A stretch of 64,000 nt of DNA from Syntrophotalea acetylenivorans (GTDB lineage: Bacteria > Desulfobacterota > Desulfuromonadia > Desulfuromonadales > Syntrophotaleaceae): contig NZ_CP015519.1 in assembly GCF_001887775.1 (NCBI RefSeq), positions 2,046,001 through 2,110,000 of the forward strand, read 5' to 3'. Shown piece after piece: positions 1-29,958 of the stretch (positions are counted from its first letter, which is position 1; every line of letters starts with the position of its first letter). The notes beneath the pieces are model-generated. The model had not been told where the DNA came from. It ran no database searches and saw only the letters and a program-made list of their open reading frames with translations. A program made the position numbers and the translations under genes.

Positions 1-1052
1 AGGAAGCTCAAAGGACCGAAATCCATAAATGTCTGCAGATCGCCACCGACTGTATAATTGTCGTAGGTGGAAGCAAGCCAGAAGTGCTTGTGGTCTGCAG
101 TGAAGGTCAGATCTTCCTCAACCAAACTATCTTTATGGTCGACATAATAACCCCGGGCCTTGACCCGTAGCCAGTCGGTAAATTGTTTTTCCCCAACCAG
201 GCTGACATGCCACTGCTCCCACTCATTGAAGCGCCAACTGCGATTGGGCACACCCTTGGGGTTGTTGTGATAGTCGAAGGTCAGATAGAGGCTGGTATCT
301 TGATCCGGCTGCCAGCCGAGCTTGGCATTGATAGTGCGCTTCATATATTCGCTACCGTCGCGCTTACCGCCGTCCTCCACAAACGGGTTTCCATCAACAG
401 TGTGTTCCCCGATAAACATCGGATCGCTGTCAAAGTCATTGGACAGGCGATAACCGTCGGACTGGCGAAAACTCGTGGTCAGCCAATAGCTAAACTTGCC
501 GAGAGTCGCACCTGTATTGAAGATGTAATTTTGAGTGGCGTAGTTACCCCAGGAAGCAATAACCTCGGCTGTAGGCTTGGCCCCGGCCGTCTTGGTTACA
601 ATATTGATAACCCCGCCAAAAGTATTGGCGCCGTAAAGGACCGAAGAGGCCCCCTTGGTCACCGTGATCTTGGCGACTGCATCGACCGGAAGCTGGGACA
701 AATCCAGTTCGCGGTAATACTGCTCATACAGAGGCACACCGTCGATCAACACCTTCAAATCGCTCTGCTCGAAGCCACGTACGCTGACGTAACTCTGGCC
801 TTTGCCGCCGACTGCTACATTGACACCGGGCAACAGCTCCAGAGCCTCGGCTACAGTCTGGGCTCCTCGCTGTTTGATATCCTCAGCGGTCACCTCGGTA
901 ACGGTGGTAGCCAGATTGACCACCTGCTGTTCGCCGGTAACAATAACCTCACCGAGCGAAAACACCTCGCTGTCCGCTGCAAAACCGGGCATTGCCGGCA
1001 GCATTGCCAACAGGCACATCCAGACCAGCGGTCTAAACAACCTTGCACTCAT
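1..1052 (-). CDS. TonB-dependent outer-membrane receptor, 5' part only
   Basis: The minus strand carries an open frame of about 350 codons that runs off the left edge, so the beta-barrel C-terminus is missing. It starts at an ATG (1050-1052) with an AGGAGG ribosome site just upstream. The first ~25 residues form a signal peptide ending around GFAADS. After it come a TonB-box-like stretch (EVIVTGEQ) and a plug domain with typical landmarks: VAEALELLPGVNV, SVRGFEQSDLKVLIDGVP and KGASSVLYGANTFGGVINIVT. Such receptors import scarce ligands across the outer membrane using TonB energy. The substrate cannot be read from the plug alone. The leader carries a Moco-type riboswitch and a terminator, so molybdate, tungstate or a chelate of them is the leading inference; corrinoid or siderophore uptake is the alternative. 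Confidence 0.9.
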   Translation of the reverse strand, partial: MSARLFRPLVWMCLLAMLPAMPGFAADSEVFSLGEVIVTGEQQVVNLATTVTEVTAEDIKQRGAQTVAEALELLPGVNVAVGGKGQSYVSVRGFEQSDLKVLIDGVPLYEQYYRELDLSQLPVDAVAKITVTKGASSVLYGANTFGGVINIVTKTAGAKPTAEVIASWGNYATQNYIFNTGATLGKFSYWLTTSFRQSDGYRLSNDFDSDPMFIGEHTVDGNPFVEDGGKRDGSEYMKRTINAKLGWQPDQDTSLYLTFDYHNNPKGVPNRSWRFNEWEQWHVSLVGEKQFTDWLRVKARGYYVDHKDSLVEEDLTFTADHKHFWLASTYDNYTVGGDLQTFMDFGPLSF

Positions 1053-1103
1053 AATAAATCCTCCTGAAAATGTCCCATCGTTTTCAATACACCCAAATTC
1101 CAT

Positions 1104-1138
1104 AAAAAAATGCGCTGACGGGTCTCCCCGCCAGCGCA
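1104..1138 (-). terminator. Rho-independent terminator in the receptor leader
   Basis: On the minus strand an 11-base-pair stem (GCGCTGGCGGG / CCCGTCAGCGC, one G-T pair) closes a GAGA loop and is followed by seven T residues. It sits between the riboswitch-like fold and the receptor start codon, the normal place for an expression-platform attenuator. Confidence 0.85.
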
Positions 1139-1167
1139 CCATATACCTTGGAATACGCGTTCGCAGG

Positions 1168-1268
1168 TCGACTCCTTTCCAAATACGGGAGGCGCCACCG
1201 TTTCCGGGGGCACCCATCGTTCAAGGTGGCTTAGCTATGGCCTTAGCCGGCCTTGAATCGGAGTGGAC
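1168..1268 (-). promoter_or_regulatory. Moco-type riboswitch aptamer upstream of the TonB receptor
   Basis: Read on the minus strand, the leader contains three nested helices: P1 ACTCC/GGAGT, P2 TTCAAGG/CCTTGAA, and a P3 hairpin GGTGCC...GGCGCC capped by CCG-GAAA-CGG. The conserved-looking strings CTCCGA, GCCTCCCG and GGAAAGGAG are, from memory, those of the Moco RNA motif, including its GNRA-capped P3. The related tungsten (Tuco) class is described as lacking P3, so the molybdenum form is favoured. The terminator 30 bases downstream suggests transcriptional control of receptor synthesis. A cobalamin riboswitch was considered and fits worse. An Rfam covariance search would settle it. Confidence 0.75.
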
Positions 1269-1471
1269 TTTATGTTAACGGGCTAAAAAACCCTCTTTCA
1301 TTAAACTTCAAGCTCTCGTTGTATAGCAAAGGGAATAGCGATTGGCAAGTAAAAATGTTGGGATTTGTCAATTTTGTGACAATCGAACGGTTTGGCGCGG
1401 TTGTTATATAATTGGAATACGCAGACTGAACTGATGGGGACAGACCATTGACCACAAACGGGGAGGAACGA

Positions 1472-12704: not shown

Positions 12705-15088
12705 GCGGCGAGCTGCCTGACAATATTCTTCTGACCACTCTCGACGACGCCATCAACTGGGGCCGCAAAAACAGTCTCTGGCCAATGTTTTTCGGCCTGT
12801 CCTGCTGTTTCGTTGAGATGATGACCAGCATGACGCCCCGCTTCGACCTGGCCCGCTTCGGTGCCGAAGTCATGCGCGGTTCGCCCCGCGAAGCGGACCT
12901 GATGGTTATCGCTGGTACCCCCTTTAAGAAGATGGCTCCGGCCATCCTGCGTGTTTACGAGCAGATGGCCAACCCCAAATGGGTCATCGCCATGGGCAGC
13001 TGCGCCAATTCCGGCGGCATGTACGACGTCTACAGCGTTATGCAGGGCATTAACCAGATTCTGCCGGTCGATGTTTATATTCCCGGCTGTCCACCCCGTC
13101 CGGAGGCTTTTCTTCAGGGGCTGCAGCTGCTGCAGGACAAGATTGCCCGAAACGAGCGACCGGCCCGGCCGGTTCTCGGCCTGCAAGGTGGCAGCGAGGG
13201 CACCACTGCGCCGATCTTTGTTGACGGCCTGAGCAAGAGCCGTGATCCAAGGGGACCGGGCTACGGCAACAGCCCGCTGCGGGGCAGCTCCATGCAGCAA
13301 CCGGCTTTCTGGGGACAGCGCAGCGACAACATGTGGCGCCCGGAGCAGCCAAAAGTCAGCTTTCCCGAGGGCAGCGACAATCTTCAAGAGCAGCTGACGA
13401 AACGCTTCGGCGAACAGGTACTGATCGATGATCAGGCCAAGGACATGCCGACCCTGCAGGTGTCCGCCGAGCATGCTCCCGAACTGCTGCGCTATTTAAA
13501 GCATGAAGCGCCGCAACCCTATCAACGCCTGGAAGACCTGACCGCCGTCGACGAGAGCGCCAGAGCCAAGCGACCTGAACATGACTATACCCTGACCTAC
13601 CATCTGTTGTCTTTTGACCAACCCGGTTATCTACGGGTCAAGGTGCCGCTGACGGGAGAGGAGCCTGAAGCCCCCTCCATCACCGAATTGTGGCCGGTGG
13701 CCGACTGGTACGAGCGGGAAGCCTACGATATGTTCGGCATCCGATTTAACGGCCATCCCAACCTGCGCCGCATCCTCATGCCGGACAACTGGTCGGGTCA
13801 TCCCCTGCGCAAGGATCAGCCCTTTCGCGCCACAGAGATGGCCCCCTTCACGCGCGAAGATATCGCCGCTATTGAACCGCGCCCGGCTGAGGACTACTTC
13901 AAAGGCCGACTGCTCGCCGACGGCGAGCAGACCATGCTCCTCAACCTGGGACCGCAACATCCCGGCACTCATGGCGTTTTACGGCTGATTCTTAAGTTGG
14001 CCGGTGAAGAGGTGGTCGACCTCGATGCCGATCTTGGCTACCACCACCGCGGTGCCGAAAAGATTGCTGAACGCCAGCACTGGGCCCAGTTTATCCCCTA
14101 TACCGACCGCATCGACTACCTGGCCGGCTCCCTCAACAATCTGGCCTATCTGCACAGCGTCGAAACCATGCTTGGCATCGAGGTACCGCCCCGTGCCCGC
14201 TACGTGCGCATTCTGTTGAGCGAACTGTTCCGCATTTCCAGTCATCTGGTGTGGCTCGGCTCTTTTGCCCACGATGTAGGCGCCATGACTCCAGTGTTCT
14301 ACGCCTTCGAAATTCGTGAGCGGATTTTCGATATCGTCGAACTGATCACCGGCGGCCGCATGCACCCGGCCTGGTTCCGCATCGGTGGCCTGCCCGCCGA
14401 CCTGCCCGATGGCTGGCAAGCCACGGTGGCTACCTTCAGCACCGACTTCCACAAACATATCGATGAATTCGACCGTCTCCTCAGCGACGGGCCGATCTTC
14501 CGCGCCCGAACCGAAGGAGTCGGTGTCATCAGTCGCGAAGACGCCAAGGACTGGGGCTTCACCGGCCCCAACCTACGGGCCACGGGACTTGCCTGGGATC
14601 TGCGCCAGACCATGCCCTACGGTGGTTATGAAGATTTCGACTTCGATATCGCCACCGCCGAGGGCGGCGACTGCTACGCCCGCTACCGGGTGCGCCTTGA
14701 AGAGTTACGCCAAAGCCTGAAAATCGTTCGTCAGGCTGTTGAACGGATGCCCGGAGGGCGTTGGATGAACGATTCCTACCGCCACTCCTATCCCCAACGG
14801 GAGGACGGTCTAAAGGATATCGACAGCTTGATTCACCACTTTGTTAATGTCTCGCGGGGTCCGACCCCGCCGGTCGGGGAATGCTACCGCGCTGTCGAAT
14901 CGAGTAAAGGCGAATGCGGCTACTATGCGGTCAGCGACGGTACCAGCATCCCCTACCGGATGCGTATTCGCACCCCGTCCTTTGCCCACATTCAGGCCAT
15001 GCCCCTGCTCAGCCGCGGAAGCCTGATTTCCGATTTGATCACCAACCTCGGCTCGGTCGATTTTGTACTGGCCGATTTGGACCGCTGA
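12701..15088 (+). CDS. nuoBCD: NADH-quinone oxidoreductase subunits B, C and D fused in one protein
   Basis: 795 residues. Residues 1-165 are NuoB with the N2 [4Fe-4S] ligands C35, C36, C101 and C130. About 165-225 is a Gly/Ser/Gln-rich linker. About 228-375 is NuoC with [19 protein letters not shown] and [10 protein letters not shown]. From about 405 it is NuoD with [26 protein letters not shown] and the C-terminal [14 protein letters not shown]. Separate nuoB, C and D are usual; CD fusions occur in enterics, while the three-part fusion is known from some other bacteria including deltaproteobacteria. This polypeptide makes most of the quinone-reducing module. It overlaps nuoA by four bases. 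Confidence 0.95.
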
Positions 15089-27551: not shown

Positions 27552-27578
27552 GAGCCGTTTACCGACGGAAACCAGACT

Positions 27579-27670
27579 AGCGCCTATTTCGTCCTCTGCC
27601 CATGGCAGACTTAACGAAACCCGCTCTGCAAAGCCGACCTGAAGGTCAGTGCGCAGATGCGGGTTTTTTT
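27579..27670 (+). ncRNA. Terminator-linked structured element, copy 1
   Basis: Conserved order: an RGCGC start, ATTTCGTCCTCTGC, a short loop, GCAGACTTAACGAAA, then CCCGC...GCGGG and seven T. The first part folds as TTTCGT/ACGAAA enclosing TCTGCC/GGCAGA with a CC/CTTA internal loop; the second part is an intrinsic terminator. It ends 38 bases before the methyltransferase gene. It matches no RNA class I recognise with confidence. It may be a riboswitch-like attenuator or a small RNA gene. Confidence 0.7.
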
Positions 27671-27708
27671 CGTTCCAGTCCATTACACTCCTGAAATGTG
27701 AATTAGCA

Positions 27709-28644
27709 ATGAATCCTTTTGTTATCTATGGAGCCGGCTGCCAGGGAGTGGCCTTGCTCCGTCTATTAGCCCAAAGCCCGAGTTCGCCTTCCGTTCACTG
27801 CTTTATCGACAGTCACCCGGCAAAGCAAGGTCAAACCCTGGATGGTTGCCCGGTTTATGCCCCTGACTATCTGCTCGAACTAAGGGAAAAAGACCCCCGT
27901 GTTGCGGTTGCTGCTGGCGGTCACTATTCGGTTATACGGCGTCTTCTGGAGAAACTCGGCTTTGAGGAAAACACCCATTTCTACGATGCCACACCGCGAC
28001 CCTTAAAGTATGGCGAAACAATTCCAGAGTTTTCCGAGCTTCACGACCAAGTCCGTCGGCATACACTTCTTAGTGAAGATCGCCTTGGTATTCTTTATCA
28101 ACTTGCCTGCCAGGCCAACCATGTTCCTGGTGATGCCGTTGAAGTAGGCGTTTACAAAGGCGGTACGGCTCTGCTCATGGCAACAGCTCTTAAAAACAGC
28201 ACCCAACAAATTCACCTATTTGACACCTTTTGCGGAATGCCTGCGGCCAAACCCGACGTCGACCTGCACAGGGCGGGGGATTTCTCAGATACCACGGCAG
28301 AGTCCGTTTCCAGCTTATTGCAAAACTTCAACAATATCCATCTTCACCCCGGTCTGTTTCCCGACAGCTTGCCTCGTGACTGGCATAACCACCGGTTCAG
28401 TCTAGTTCATATCGATGTAGACATTTTTTCGTCGACCCTCGCTTGCTGCCGGTATTTTTATCCTCGGCTAAACCCCGGAGGAGTAATGGTCATAGACGAT
28501 TACGGCTTCCCTTCTTGCCCTGGCGTGCGTAAGGCCGTGGACGAGTATTTTAACAACTGCGATCAGCGCCCCCTCTATCTTCCAACAGGACAAGCTTTGA
28601 TATACCAATGCCAACCAAATGCCTGCAACTGCCATAAACCGTAA
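27709..28644 (+). CDS. TylF-like SAM methyltransferase with an N-terminal nucleotide-binding-like domain
   Basis: About 311 residues from the ATG at 27709; no strong ribosome site. Residues 1-95 form a Rossmann-like domain (VIYGAGCQGVALLRLL, FIDSHPAKQGQTLDGCPV), as at the N-terminus of sugar acyltransferases such as PglD. From about 120 it resembles macrocin O-methyltransferase (TylF/MycF): VEVGVYKGGTALLMA, HLFDTFCGMP, FSLVHIDVDIFSSTLACCRYF and GGVMVIDDYG, where the Asp residues would bind metal. The short C-terminal tail has two cysteines (CNCH). The substrate, probably a sugar or polyketide-like hydroxyl, is unknown. Confidence 0.75.
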   Translation: MNPFVIYGAGCQGVALLRLLAQSPSSPSVHCFIDSHPAKQGQTLDGCPVYAPDYLLELREKDPRVAVAAGGHYSVIRRLLEKLGFEENTHFYDATPRPLKYGETIPEFSELHDQVRRHTLLSEDRLGILYQLACQANHVPGDAVEVGVYKGGTALLMATALKNSTQQIHLFDTFCGMPAAKPDVDLHRAGDFSDTTAESVSSLLQNFNNIHLHPGLFPDSLPRDWHNHRFSLVHIDVDIFSSTLACCRYFYPRLNPGGVMVIDDYGFPSCPGVRKAVDEYFNNCDQRPLYLPTGQALIYQCQPNACNCHKP

Positions 28645-28741
28645 AAAAACCGAAAATAAATATTCTTTGGTTCGTTTGGCCCGGTTAGGATTTATCCTTC
28701 TTGCCGGAGACTTCTGTCACATTTAACAAGGAGAATATCCC

Positions 28742-29242
28742 ATGAAGATCTGTTTCCCCGTAGCCGTTGATAACGGAATCAACAGTGAACTTTTCAGCCA
28801 CTTTGCCTCTGCTCCCAAATTTCTGATCATTGATACCGAAAACAGCGACATTGAATCGGTCGATAACTGCGACATCAAAGACCCCATGAAAGGCTGCGAC
28901 CCTTTTGCCGCCCTGCAAAAGAAAAACCTTGACGCCATCATCGTCGACGCTATTGGTGATGCCATTCACCAAACCATGAACATGTGCGGCTTCCGAGTCT
29001 TTACCGCCACCGGCAGCAGACTGCAACAACTGACTGAGGCCTTTAAAAACGAGGAACTGGAAGAAATAGAACCTTTCTACAGCCAGGAGGCAGGCCGTTG
29101 TGGCGACGAAGAAGACGGTTGCGGCCATGACCACCACGCGGAAGAGGAAGTCGGTGAAATTAAAGAAACACCTGGCAACTGTGTACTTCAGGGCGGCAGC
29201 GGTTGCGCAGACCATGACAGCGATTCCTGCTCCGGCCATTGA
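28742..29242 (+). CDS. NifX/NifB-type iron-molybdenum cofactor-binding domain protein with a His/Cys tail
   Basis: 166 residues with an AAGGAG site. Residues 1-110 are the dinitrogenase FeMo-cofactor fold (MKICFPVAVDNGINSELFSHFASAPKFLI; later DAIIVDAIGDAIHQTMNMCGFRVFTA). Relatives carry FeMo-co precursors or, outside nitrogen fixation, metal clusters. The tail is acidic and rich in metal ligands: GCGHDHHAEEE, CVLQGGSGCADHDSDSCSGH. No nif genes are in the window. A role in handling molybdenum or another metal for the nearby enzymes is plausible but not shown. Confidence 0.85.
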   Translation: MKICFPVAVDNGINSELFSHFASAPKFLIIDTENSDIESVDNCDIKDPMKGCDPFAALQKKNLDAIIVDAIGDAIHQTMNMCGFRVFTATGSRLQQLTEAFKNEELEEIEPFYSQEAGRCGDEEDGCGHDHHAEEEVGEIKETPGNCVLQGGSGCADHDSDSCSGH

Positions 29243-29400
29243 ATCCAACTGGAGCAACCTGTCAATGGTTATTTTTAGGTATTTTTGGTTGTTTACGGTA
29301 AATTATGTCCGTTAGTGTTATTTTTGTCTTGTGAAATCGGCCAGGGGTTTGCTATAAGAGCATTTCAAATGATGTTTTATTTTATAAGAATCTATCAAAT

Positions 29401-29428
29401 AAGGCAGTCGCCTCCAGGCGGCTGCCTT
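29401..29428. repeat. Perfect hairpin ahead of element copy 2
   Basis: AAGGCAGTCGCCT and AGGCGGCTGCCTT pair over 13 positions, with one T-G, around CC. It lies six bases before the second structured element and is not followed by T residues, so it is not a terminator on the plus strand. It may be part of that copy's leader. Confidence 0.55.
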
Positions 29429-29434
29429 ACAGAT

Positions 29435-29514
29435 GGCGCCCATTTCGTCCTCTGCATCGGCAGACCCAACGAAACCCGCAACGAACCCTTTCAAGGCCCA
29501 GGTGCGGGTTTTTT
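29435..29514 (+). ncRNA. Terminator-linked structured element, copy 2
   Basis: The same signature as copies 1 and 3: GGCGCC, ATTTCGTCCTCTGC, tetraloop ATCG, GCAGACCCAACGAAA, then CCCGC...GCGGG and six T. It ends 65 bases before the second small DUF2292-like gene. The loop and the spacer within the terminator vary while the paired segments and the internal loop are kept, which points to RNA structure. Confidence 0.72.
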
Positions 29515-29579
29515 CAATCCATGGCCGGTCAGTATCGGCGTACTTGTTCATCGGCTATGCCCAGGAGGCAAAAAGAGTC

Positions 29580-29834
29580 ATGTCCATTCCGGAAATTCTA
29601 CGCCTGGAGTCTCAGTTGCGAGATGAACCCAGCCAGAAAGGGAAGTCTTCCTCCGGGCGGCGACGTTCCCCCGAGACAGACCTTTCGGCTGCAACGATCT
29701 CAACCCGTAAACGTATCATTGCCTCCACCATGCAAAAAATGGAATTCATTAACGGTACCTTTACCGGCAAACTGATTATCTCCTTCAAAGAGGGCGGTGT
29801 CAGCTACATCGAAAAGATCGAACAGTTCAAGTAA
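29580..29834 (+). CDS. Small DUF2292/YezD-like protein, copy 2
   Basis: 84 residues from the ATG at 29580, which has an AGGAGG site; the open frame starts much further upstream, inside structured element copy 2, and is not believable there. A Ser/Arg-rich, probably disordered N-terminal half is followed by FTGKLIISFKEGGVSYIEK, nearly identical to the block in the protein at 27125. The two are paralogues that differ in their N-terminal halves. Function unknown; it is flanked by element copies 2 and 3. Confidence 0.72.
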   Translation: MSIPEILRLESQLRDEPSQKGKSSSGRRRSPETDLSAATISTRKRIIASTMQKMEFINGTFTGKLIISFKEGGVSYIEKIEQFK

Positions 29835-29873
29835 CCTAAGAGCATAAAGAAAACCCCACAACTGATTATACGA

Positions 29874-29958
29874 AGCGCTCATTTCGTCCTCTGCCCCGGC
29901 AGACCTAACGAAACCCGCATTGATTACCTGACACACAGGTATTGATGCGGGTTTTTTT
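29874..29958 (+). ncRNA. Terminator-linked structured element, copy 3
   Basis: AGCGCTC, ATTTCGTCCTCTGC, CCCG, GCAGACCTAACGAAA, then a long terminator stem beginning CCCGCAT and ending ATGCGGG, followed by seven T. It lies 40 bases after the second small gene and 165 bases before the molybdopterin-binding gene. It could terminate the former and/or act in the leader of the latter. Confidence 0.72.

Follow-up and report, generated by a model that had tools for sequence, protein, structure and literature searches.

The window analysed here, a stretch of 64,000 nucleotides (nt) from Syntrophotalea acetylenivorans (contig NZ_CP015519.1, positions 2,046,001 to 2,110,000), begins with the first part of a gene for a TonB-dependent receptor, here called REC1, which is read from the minus strand and preceded by a structured leader. 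From 1348 to 1 on that strand, the order is a putative promoter, an aptamer of the molybdenum cofactor (Moco) and tungsten cofactor (Tuco) riboswitch family, a linker, a terminator-like hairpin, a Shine-Dalgarno sequence and the receptor gene. The putative sigma-70 promoter (1320-1348) was read by eye as TTGCCA (1348-1343), a spacer of 17 nt and TATACA (1325-1320); a consensus promoter scan did not list it, the last base of the -10 element being different. The aptamer (1156-1275) lies about 100 nt upstream of the receptor's ATG at 1052, and between them are situated the intrinsic-terminator-like hairpin (1104-1140, a stem of 14 base pairs with a U tract) and the Shine-Dalgarno sequence AGGAGG (1060-1065). 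REC1 occupies 1-1052, continues beyond the window and has a full length of 663 amino acids (L005:12062-14053, L005 being the locus of REC1). We regard it as quite probable that this P3-less riboswitch of the Moco family controls, by transcription attenuation, a TonB receptor that imports tungsten or molybdenum species across the outer membrane.

The segment 1156-1275 on the minus strand is a Moco riboswitch aptamer. In a cmscan search of the whole window, RF01055 matched 1275-1156 with 69.2 bits (gathering threshold 36, E-value 1.3e-14), complete from model position 1 to 135. A Moco-type riboswitch had been proposed in an earlier note made from the letters of this DNA, and the proposal is borne out: the helices and motifs named there are all found on the minus strand, i.e., stem P1 (ACTCC/GGAGT, lengthened by GUC/GAC), stem P2 (TTCAAGG/CCTTGAA), and a conserved core including the GAAA-capped hairpin, CTCCGA, GCCTCCCG and GGAAAGGAG. 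While class and helices stand, the position had to be corrected to the one given here, and a P3 stem is absent, its columns being gaps in the RF01055 alignment. The GAAA tetraloop, of GNRA type, is present on P4. Rival RNA models, as which the note had named cobalamin and others, do not score near RF01055: with permissive thresholds over 1040-1450, the runner-up family in the leader reached 19.6 bits against its own gathering threshold of 58, and cobalamin was not listed at E-values up to 10. The covariation of the helices, likewise called for, is seen as compensatory changes at 17 of 26 consensus pairs among 65 aptamers of the order Desulfuromonadales (including the window's and two orthologues). 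The folding energy of 1085-1290 is -84.8 kcal/mol (z -4.3 compared to 200 shuffles).

Across 14 genomes of the family, 38 matches to RF01055 were found, three of which precede REC1 orthologues (in S. acetylenivorans itself, G010 and G011). The receptors of G010 and G011 share 67% and 63% identity with REC1, the linker and the terminator have hardly changed, and all three leaders give full-length matches of 63-69 bits. Three observations count against our reading: the tetraloop receptor in the P2 bulge keeps CUAAG, but the three REC1 leaders all have CUAAG in place of its usual 3' half, UAUGG; a REC1 orthologue was not found in two of the five genomes of the genus (G012, which is 67% complete, and G013); and RF01055 does not match at four REC1 orthologues of the sister genus (L042-L045). 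The altered tetraloop-receptor half and the absence of the aptamer from the sister genus might indicate a decayed or constitutive leader without regulatory effect; we consider this highly improbable, given the full-length matches and a linker and terminator that are nearly invariant though the receptors differ at about a third of their residues. The tetraloop receptor is usual but not obligatory, two RNAs with a GAAA loop but without it being described in the part of PMC2408646 consulted.

In the sister genus, the 300-450 nt upstream of the REC1 orthologues (L062, L063, L067, L292) contain, after a similar promoter, a different leader consisting of GGGA, a U-rich stretch, GCGAGGGCUUG and a hairpin with compensatory stem variation (four sequences, pairing by eye). 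The loop of this hairpin (CUCCC, UCCC or UUUCC) could, also by eye, pair with the upstream GGGA(G). These leaders gave zero Rfam matches at E-values up to 0.5.

Concerning the expression platform, the terminator claimed in the earlier note was recovered as a terminator-like hairpin at 1140-1109 with 14 pairs (9 G-C) and a U tract to 1104, and is kept in the three orthologous leaders. As a terminator scan alone performed no better than chance (1 found versus 0.9 expected in shuffles), the case for a terminator comes from the position and the near-identity in these leaders. Folded with ViennaRNA, the three leaders have a lowest-energy structure in which P1 (GUC.ACUCC/GGAGU.GAC) and the terminator occur together (-75.1, -72.7 and -65.0 kcal/mol). 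If the 3' half of the terminator is blocked, the 3' end of P1 shifts into a predicted antiterminator hairpin (1122-1172, minus strand; GUC..CCUGC..GCGUA..CCA / UGG..UGCGC..GCGGG..GAC; -64.5, -58.9 and -52.9 kcal/mol); the same shift is found in all three leaders if that 3' half is untranscribed, the hairpin 1172-1122 then taking the 5' half of the terminator. The antiterminator reuses the 3' strand of P1 and both are mutually exclusive, so that a ligand-stabilised P1 would favour termination. The folding model thereby suggests a feedback OFF switch, the direction to be expected of an uptake gene that is subject to product feedback. Two points count against it: the antiterminator is nearly invariant and, since the three leaders are near-identical, without covariation support; and the terminator state is more stable than the antiterminator state. 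UUCCAA, situated 3' of the aptamer and considered as a general anti-aptamer, was dropped for REC1, the energies favouring the antiterminator that overlaps P1.

Leaders of genes for aldehyde:ferredoxin oxidoreductase (AOR) look opposite in sign. Among ten such leaders chosen by a string filter, a CCUCCC/GGGAGG helix over the Shine-Dalgarno sequence has at least 6 pairs in nine (mean 6.4 versus 4.2 in shuffled sequences), and a helix between CCUCCC of the aptamer and GGGAGG of the Shine-Dalgarno sequence is also seen in the fold of the AOR leader of S. acetylenivorans. By this model, cofactor binding would turn the enzyme on (ON switch).

The gene behind the riboswitch codes, as had been noted earlier, for a TonB-dependent receptor with both plug (Plug, PF07715, 97.1 bits) and barrel (TonB_dep_Rec, PF00593, 161.5 bits). 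REC1 remains below the curated cut-off of all 25 NCBIfam models examined, the best 25 of 33 listed; the highest-scoring ones are those for siderophore (206 versus a cut-off of 223.5), haem (181 versus 317) and B12 receptors (148 versus 600), and the nearest solved structures are Cir and BtuB. According to Pfam, the downstream genes code for a CcsA-like protein (L005:11097-11981), a ResB-like protein below the Pfam cut-off (L005:10343-11104), and an exported-looking protein with Oxidored_molyb and TP_methylase domains and a CxxCH motif (L005:8535-10340, minus strand). These are not obvious oxyanion transporters, a point against our reading, and they might hint at haem or a tetrapyrrole as the substrate. 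An alternative is that the riboswitch is real but the receptor imports haem, a corrinoid, another tetrapyrrole or an iron siderophore for the redox proteins of the operon, with the cofactor merely signalling the metabolic state. Besides the CcsA-like and ResB-like partners and the CxxCH protein with its tetrapyrrole-methylase domain, the ranking of the NCBIfam models and the nearest structures favour this explanation. We nevertheless judge it unlikely: the siderophore, haem and B12 scores are all under their cut-offs, the genome's B12-type receptor is a separate gene outside the receptor group of REC1 with a cobalamin riboswitch of its own, and molybdenum- or tungsten-related RNAs and TupA, ModE, FmdE, Mob or XdhC genes accompany this group (see below).

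The CxxCH motif of the Oxidored_molyb protein is kept in 15 of 15 aligned homologues, but the region that would correspond to the Moco fold (residues 214-345) contains zero cysteines, for which reason the protein is unlikely to be a molybdoenzyme. Of 277 genomes of the class Desulfuromonadia, 23 encode relatives of it (E-value up to 1e-30); they adjoin a REC1-like receptor in 15 of 15 aligned loci, and next to one control receptor (L294) there is a weak match too. Its sulfite-oxidase-type Moco-binding domain might be taken as a sign that the receptor scavenges, similar to BtuB, the intact pyranopterin cofactor or a form of it bound to protein or pterin, such that the riboswitch would respond directly to the substance taken up. 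Free pyranopterin cofactor is labile, however, the lack of cysteines in the said residues means that no molybdenum-ligating cysteine is present, and oxyanion-type binding proteins are found among the neighbours elsewhere in the group. Even though receptors behind B12 and thiamine pyrophosphate (TPP) riboswitches are presumed to take up the cofactor that their riboswitch senses (PMC5317091, in the part consulted), such scavenging seems to us very unlikely.

The import of tungsten or molybdenum species is supported by the receptor's relatives. A related-locus search with the single REC1 query gave no matches, and one with a receptor alignment gave five loci (four of Desulfuromonadales and one weak Sphingomonas match); a profile of seven REC1 orthologues found 67 receptors in 43 of the 277 genomes of the class (E-value up to 1e-70). 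The neighbourhood sample comprises 51 loci holding 52 of these 67 receptors (left out are one fragment and the 14 weakest), 11 of them known before this search and 40 added in order of E-value. As controls served 20 loci from 18 of 19 genomes, in general around the second-listed non-group receptor of each genome (in G103 the third choice; G154 left out due to overlap; G048 and G049 represented by the first-listed receptor as well). Most loci extend about 6 kilobases (kb) to each side, less at contig ends. In a quick maximum-likelihood tree of the receptors of these neighbourhoods (no bootstrap, midpoint root), REC1 falls into a group of 53 rows with four subgroups and SH-aLRT support of 100, apart from the control receptors except L304, which fell inside the group and was kept among the controls.

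With covariance models built in this analysis, Moco or Moco-II RNAs were found in 18 of the 51 group loci versus none of the 20 control loci (p 0.0016), or, minus the three discovery loci, in 15 of 48 versus 0 of 20 (p 0.003). Any molybdenum- or tungsten-related RNA or protein marker is present in 30 of 51 group loci (tallied by hand) versus 0 of 20 controls (p 1.5e-6), or 0 of 19 without L304 (p 3.6e-6). Protein markers were FmdE, TupA type, ModA/B, ModE, MobA/B, MoeA, MoaA, XdhC, AOR and the HTH-PBP regulator, at an E-value of 1e-10 (ModE 1e-6); TupA-type matches may take in related binding proteins. The marker count leaves aside Peripla_BP_2, FecCD, methyltransferase, CcsA and the Oxidored_molyb protein; FecCD, Peripla_BP_2 or a weak match to the last (L294) also occur in some controls. 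In five RNA-positive loci (L273, L276, L283, L286, L290) the RNA possibly serves a neighbouring gene.

In six loci of two subgroups (L005, L059, L061; L262, L263, L274), a Moco RNA immediately precedes the receptor and is in each case followed by a hairpin and a U run; in L263 the RNA is tandem. The gene order in L211/L262 is TupA type, Moco RNA, receptor, Peripla_BP_2, FecCD, that in L223/L275 MobA, MobB, ModE, receptor, and that in L065 and L066 Moco-II, methyltransferase, receptor, Peripla_BP_2, FecCD and FmdE. A Moco-II RNA upstream of genes for methyltransferase, TonB receptor, Peripla_BP_2, FecCD and FmdE is found in L065, L066, L278, L281 and L289; an ATPase was checked for in L066 only, and an HTH+PBP_like regulator lies near four of the five. 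These loci constitute a candidate uptake system for molybdenum or tungsten. Beside the second group receptor of S. acetylenivorans, a possible remnant of a TupA-like gene is found (L068:8430-8981, E-value 2e-14); in G010 and G013 (L069, L070) this gene is full-length.

Upstream of REC1, a palindrome similar to ModE operators (CGnTAT-N12-ATAnCG with one mismatch, 1317-1340, found by pattern scan) overlaps the putative -10 element; the pattern, CGnTAT-N11-13-ATAnCG, is what we take to be the form of these operators. Exact sites within 500 nt upstream occur in 14 of 51 group receptors and in none of the 22 control receptors (0.0 expected from shuffling), and sites with up to one mismatch in 29 of 51 versus 3 of 22, one of these being L304 (shuffle expectation 1.4). 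At the latter stringency, all seven close REC1 orthologues have a site, as do 14 of the 15 loci in the REC1 subclade, and the promoter context of the site is alike in those close orthologues that were inspected. The palindrome represents a possible second control of the receptor by molybdenum or tungsten. A second exact palindrome of L068 (L068:14557-14580) lies shortly before an open reading frame (ORF) at 14672 whose product resembles an ABC-type ATPase. Markers and exact sites combined by hand, 39 of 51 group loci carry one or the other. The earlier guess that the receptor imports molybdate, tungstate or a metal chelate thus gains support, since genes, RNAs and ModE-like sites related to these metals accompany the receptor's relatives.

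Several observations have to be set against this reading. Among the Moco RNAs of the order, only 3 of 141 precede a REC1-type receptor. In the REC1 subclade itself, 12 of 15 loci are without any RNA or protein marker; nine of these twelve, however, have an exact ModE-like site, a finding that speaks against regarding most REC1 relatives as unconnected with molybdenum or tungsten. The window's own palindrome carries a mismatch, and no ModE-like site was found in the 3.8-kb tupA and the 3.3-kb modE locus of the same genome. TupA-type matches score, where checked, below the equivalog cut-off. Concerning the statistics, the choice of markers and the ModE pattern were fixed after some of the group loci had been seen, and the p-values given above overstate independence because the loci are phylogenetically related.

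The genome (3,218,469 bases) contains four RF01055 aptamers, which precede genes for an AOR (AFOR_N 213.8 and AFOR_C 237.9 bits), REC1, a protein of acetaldehyde-dehydrogenase type (best NCBIfam model 568 bits versus a cut-off of 951) and MoeA. It also encodes acetylene hydratase, a tungsten enzyme, in two or more near-identical genes (1526.6 bits to 2e7z for the one searched), a TupA-type protein (NF041772, 236.5 bits versus an equivalog cut-off of 400), and a ModE-type regulator (HTH_1 and TOBE; Mop 107.8 bits, cut-off 55; TIGR00637 95.4 bits, cut-off 98.5). With these aptamers and genes, the genome looks like that of a tungsten user. P3-less aptamers have been proposed, from gene context, to sense the tungsten cofactor (PMC2408646, as far as consulted). 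Given this aptamer type and the acetylene hydratase, tungsten appears at least as likely as molybdenum for the REC1 switch.

The genome's three Moco-II RNAs all lie within the window, on the plus strand at 27578-27624 (RF01713, 59.1 bits; not part of the receptor leader), 29434-29479 and 29874-29918 (57.3 bits each). Situated within 2.4 kb (27578-29918), they precede genes for a TylF-like methyltransferase, a molybdopterin-binding protein and a xanthine-dehydrogenase-type enzyme; together with XdhC, a MobA-like protein and ModABC-like transporter genes, they confirm the molybdenum island that had been recognised in the window. Another TonB gene of the genome lies downstream of the AOR Moco RNA (L006) but, having a cobalamin riboswitch in its own leader (RF00174, 108 bits, L006:10548-10370), was not accepted as a target of the Moco RNA; it codes for the B12-type receptor mentioned above, outside the REC1 group in the tree. 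The P3-less Moco RNA ahead of the acetaldehyde-dehydrogenase-type gene (L007:12453-14057, minus strand) occurs in a genome with acetylene hydratase. The acetaldehyde dehydrogenase family is not known to use molybdenum or tungsten, and this switch may report the activity of the acetaldehyde-making tungsten enzyme.

Across the order, 67 of 136 genomes contain RF01055 matches, 147 in total, of which 141 were tallied (the tally excludes three matches below the cut-off, one situated at a contig end and two that were the upstream partner in a tandem). By clusters of the first downstream ORF, these precede AOR (63), a tungstate ABC-transporter type (26 and 14), Porin_O_P (10), MoeA (8), TonB receptors (3), the acetaldehyde-dehydrogenase type (3), TetR-like proteins (2) or singletons (6), and six have no ORF; the clusters were named from few representatives, the tungstate type partly by eye, and the cluster of 14 is mixed, with out-of-frame ORFs. 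Moco RNAs lie directly upstream of Porin_O_P genes (PF07396) in seven genomes and of Porin_4 in an eighth (L075, L088, L090, L126, L131, L144, L154, and L163), several of them in tandem. Porin_O_P with a Moco RNA would be an anion-porin counterpart of the TonB receptor. Since Moco RNAs precede porins across the order, cofactor-controlled outer-membrane proteins are not peculiar to the genus.

Cofactor-controlled outer-membrane uptake of tungsten or molybdenum therefore remains, on the sequence evidence, the likely function of the locus. The ligand would most likely be the tungsten (or molybdenum) pyranopterin cofactor. With free cofactor present, P1 would close and deny its 3' strand to the antiterminator, the terminator would form and the receptor operon would be off; with little cofactor, P1 would open, the antiterminator would hold the 5' half of the terminator and the operon would be read. 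While the oxyanion is abundant, further repression might come from a ModE-like operator that overlaps the promoter. The ligands of TonB receptors are usually bulky, which makes a chelate or thio-anion more readily conceivable as the imported species than free tungstate; a polyoxo-anion or a carrier complex of either metal might be considered as well. With somewhat less confidence, though still as the favoured view, we place REC1 in an undescribed clade of TonB receptors for the acquisition of tungsten or molybdenum, which, depending on lineage, would be under the control of Moco/Tuco riboswitches, Moco-II RNAs or ModE-like operators and paralleled elsewhere by riboswitch-controlled Porin_O_P. 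If true, the clade would establish an active passage of these metals across the outer membrane under feedback control by the cofactor. Import of the oxyanions is usually described from the periplasm inward, and the crossing of the outer membrane by scarce tungstate or molybdate, including thio- and chelated forms in sulfidic sediments, is little described in the literature consulted. A cofactor-sensing RNA before a TonB receptor would represent a regulated, genetically testable entry gate; it would help to assign names to orphan TonB receptors of anaerobes and could serve as a reporter for the tungsten-cofactor specificity that is still unproven for P3-less aptamers.

Among known systems, the leader is most directly comparable to the Moco/Tuco riboswitches described by Regulski et al. 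2008 (PMC2408646, in the part consulted), with which it shares the full-length aptamer of P3-less type, the conserved core and the GAAA tetraloop; terminator-type expression platforms are given there in general terms, and the window's leader also has a terminator-like hairpin. Unlike those cases, it precedes an outer-membrane receptor and differs in the 3' half of the tetraloop receptor; the main text of that paper, as far as consulted and apart from the gene list in its supplement, contains zero mentions of TonB or outer membrane. The parts of the open-licence PubMed Central literature seen likewise gave no Moco riboswitch before a TonB receptor or porin and no TonB receptor for molybdenum or tungsten, although supplements (PMC2408646, PMC3766115) may hold cases. 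A cofactor riboswitch upstream of a TonB-dependent receptor is also found in BtuB with its cobalamin riboswitch and in a TonB receptor with a TPP riboswitch (Caldithrix; PMC5317091, in part); aptamers and receptors are others there, and the receptor is assumed to take up the very cofactor that is sensed. ModABC, TupABC and WtpABC handle the same metals, and TupA- or ModA-type genes adjoin several group receptors, but these systems comprise the periplasmic and inner-membrane step, with no outer-membrane receptor. IcmP of Pseudomonas aeruginosa (PMC11734730, in part; likened by description only) also concerns an outer-membrane step of molybdate acquisition, whereas it works with ModA secreted by a type VI secretion system, with no riboswitch named. 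The Moco-II RNA (RF01713; PMC2864571, in part) is similar as a molybdenum-linked leader that occurs upstream of the paralogous-receptor operons described above, but it is an unrelated motif of 46 nt whose table row in that publication bears a question mark. Compared with all of these, the REC1 leader combines a known riboswitch class with an apparently new class of target.

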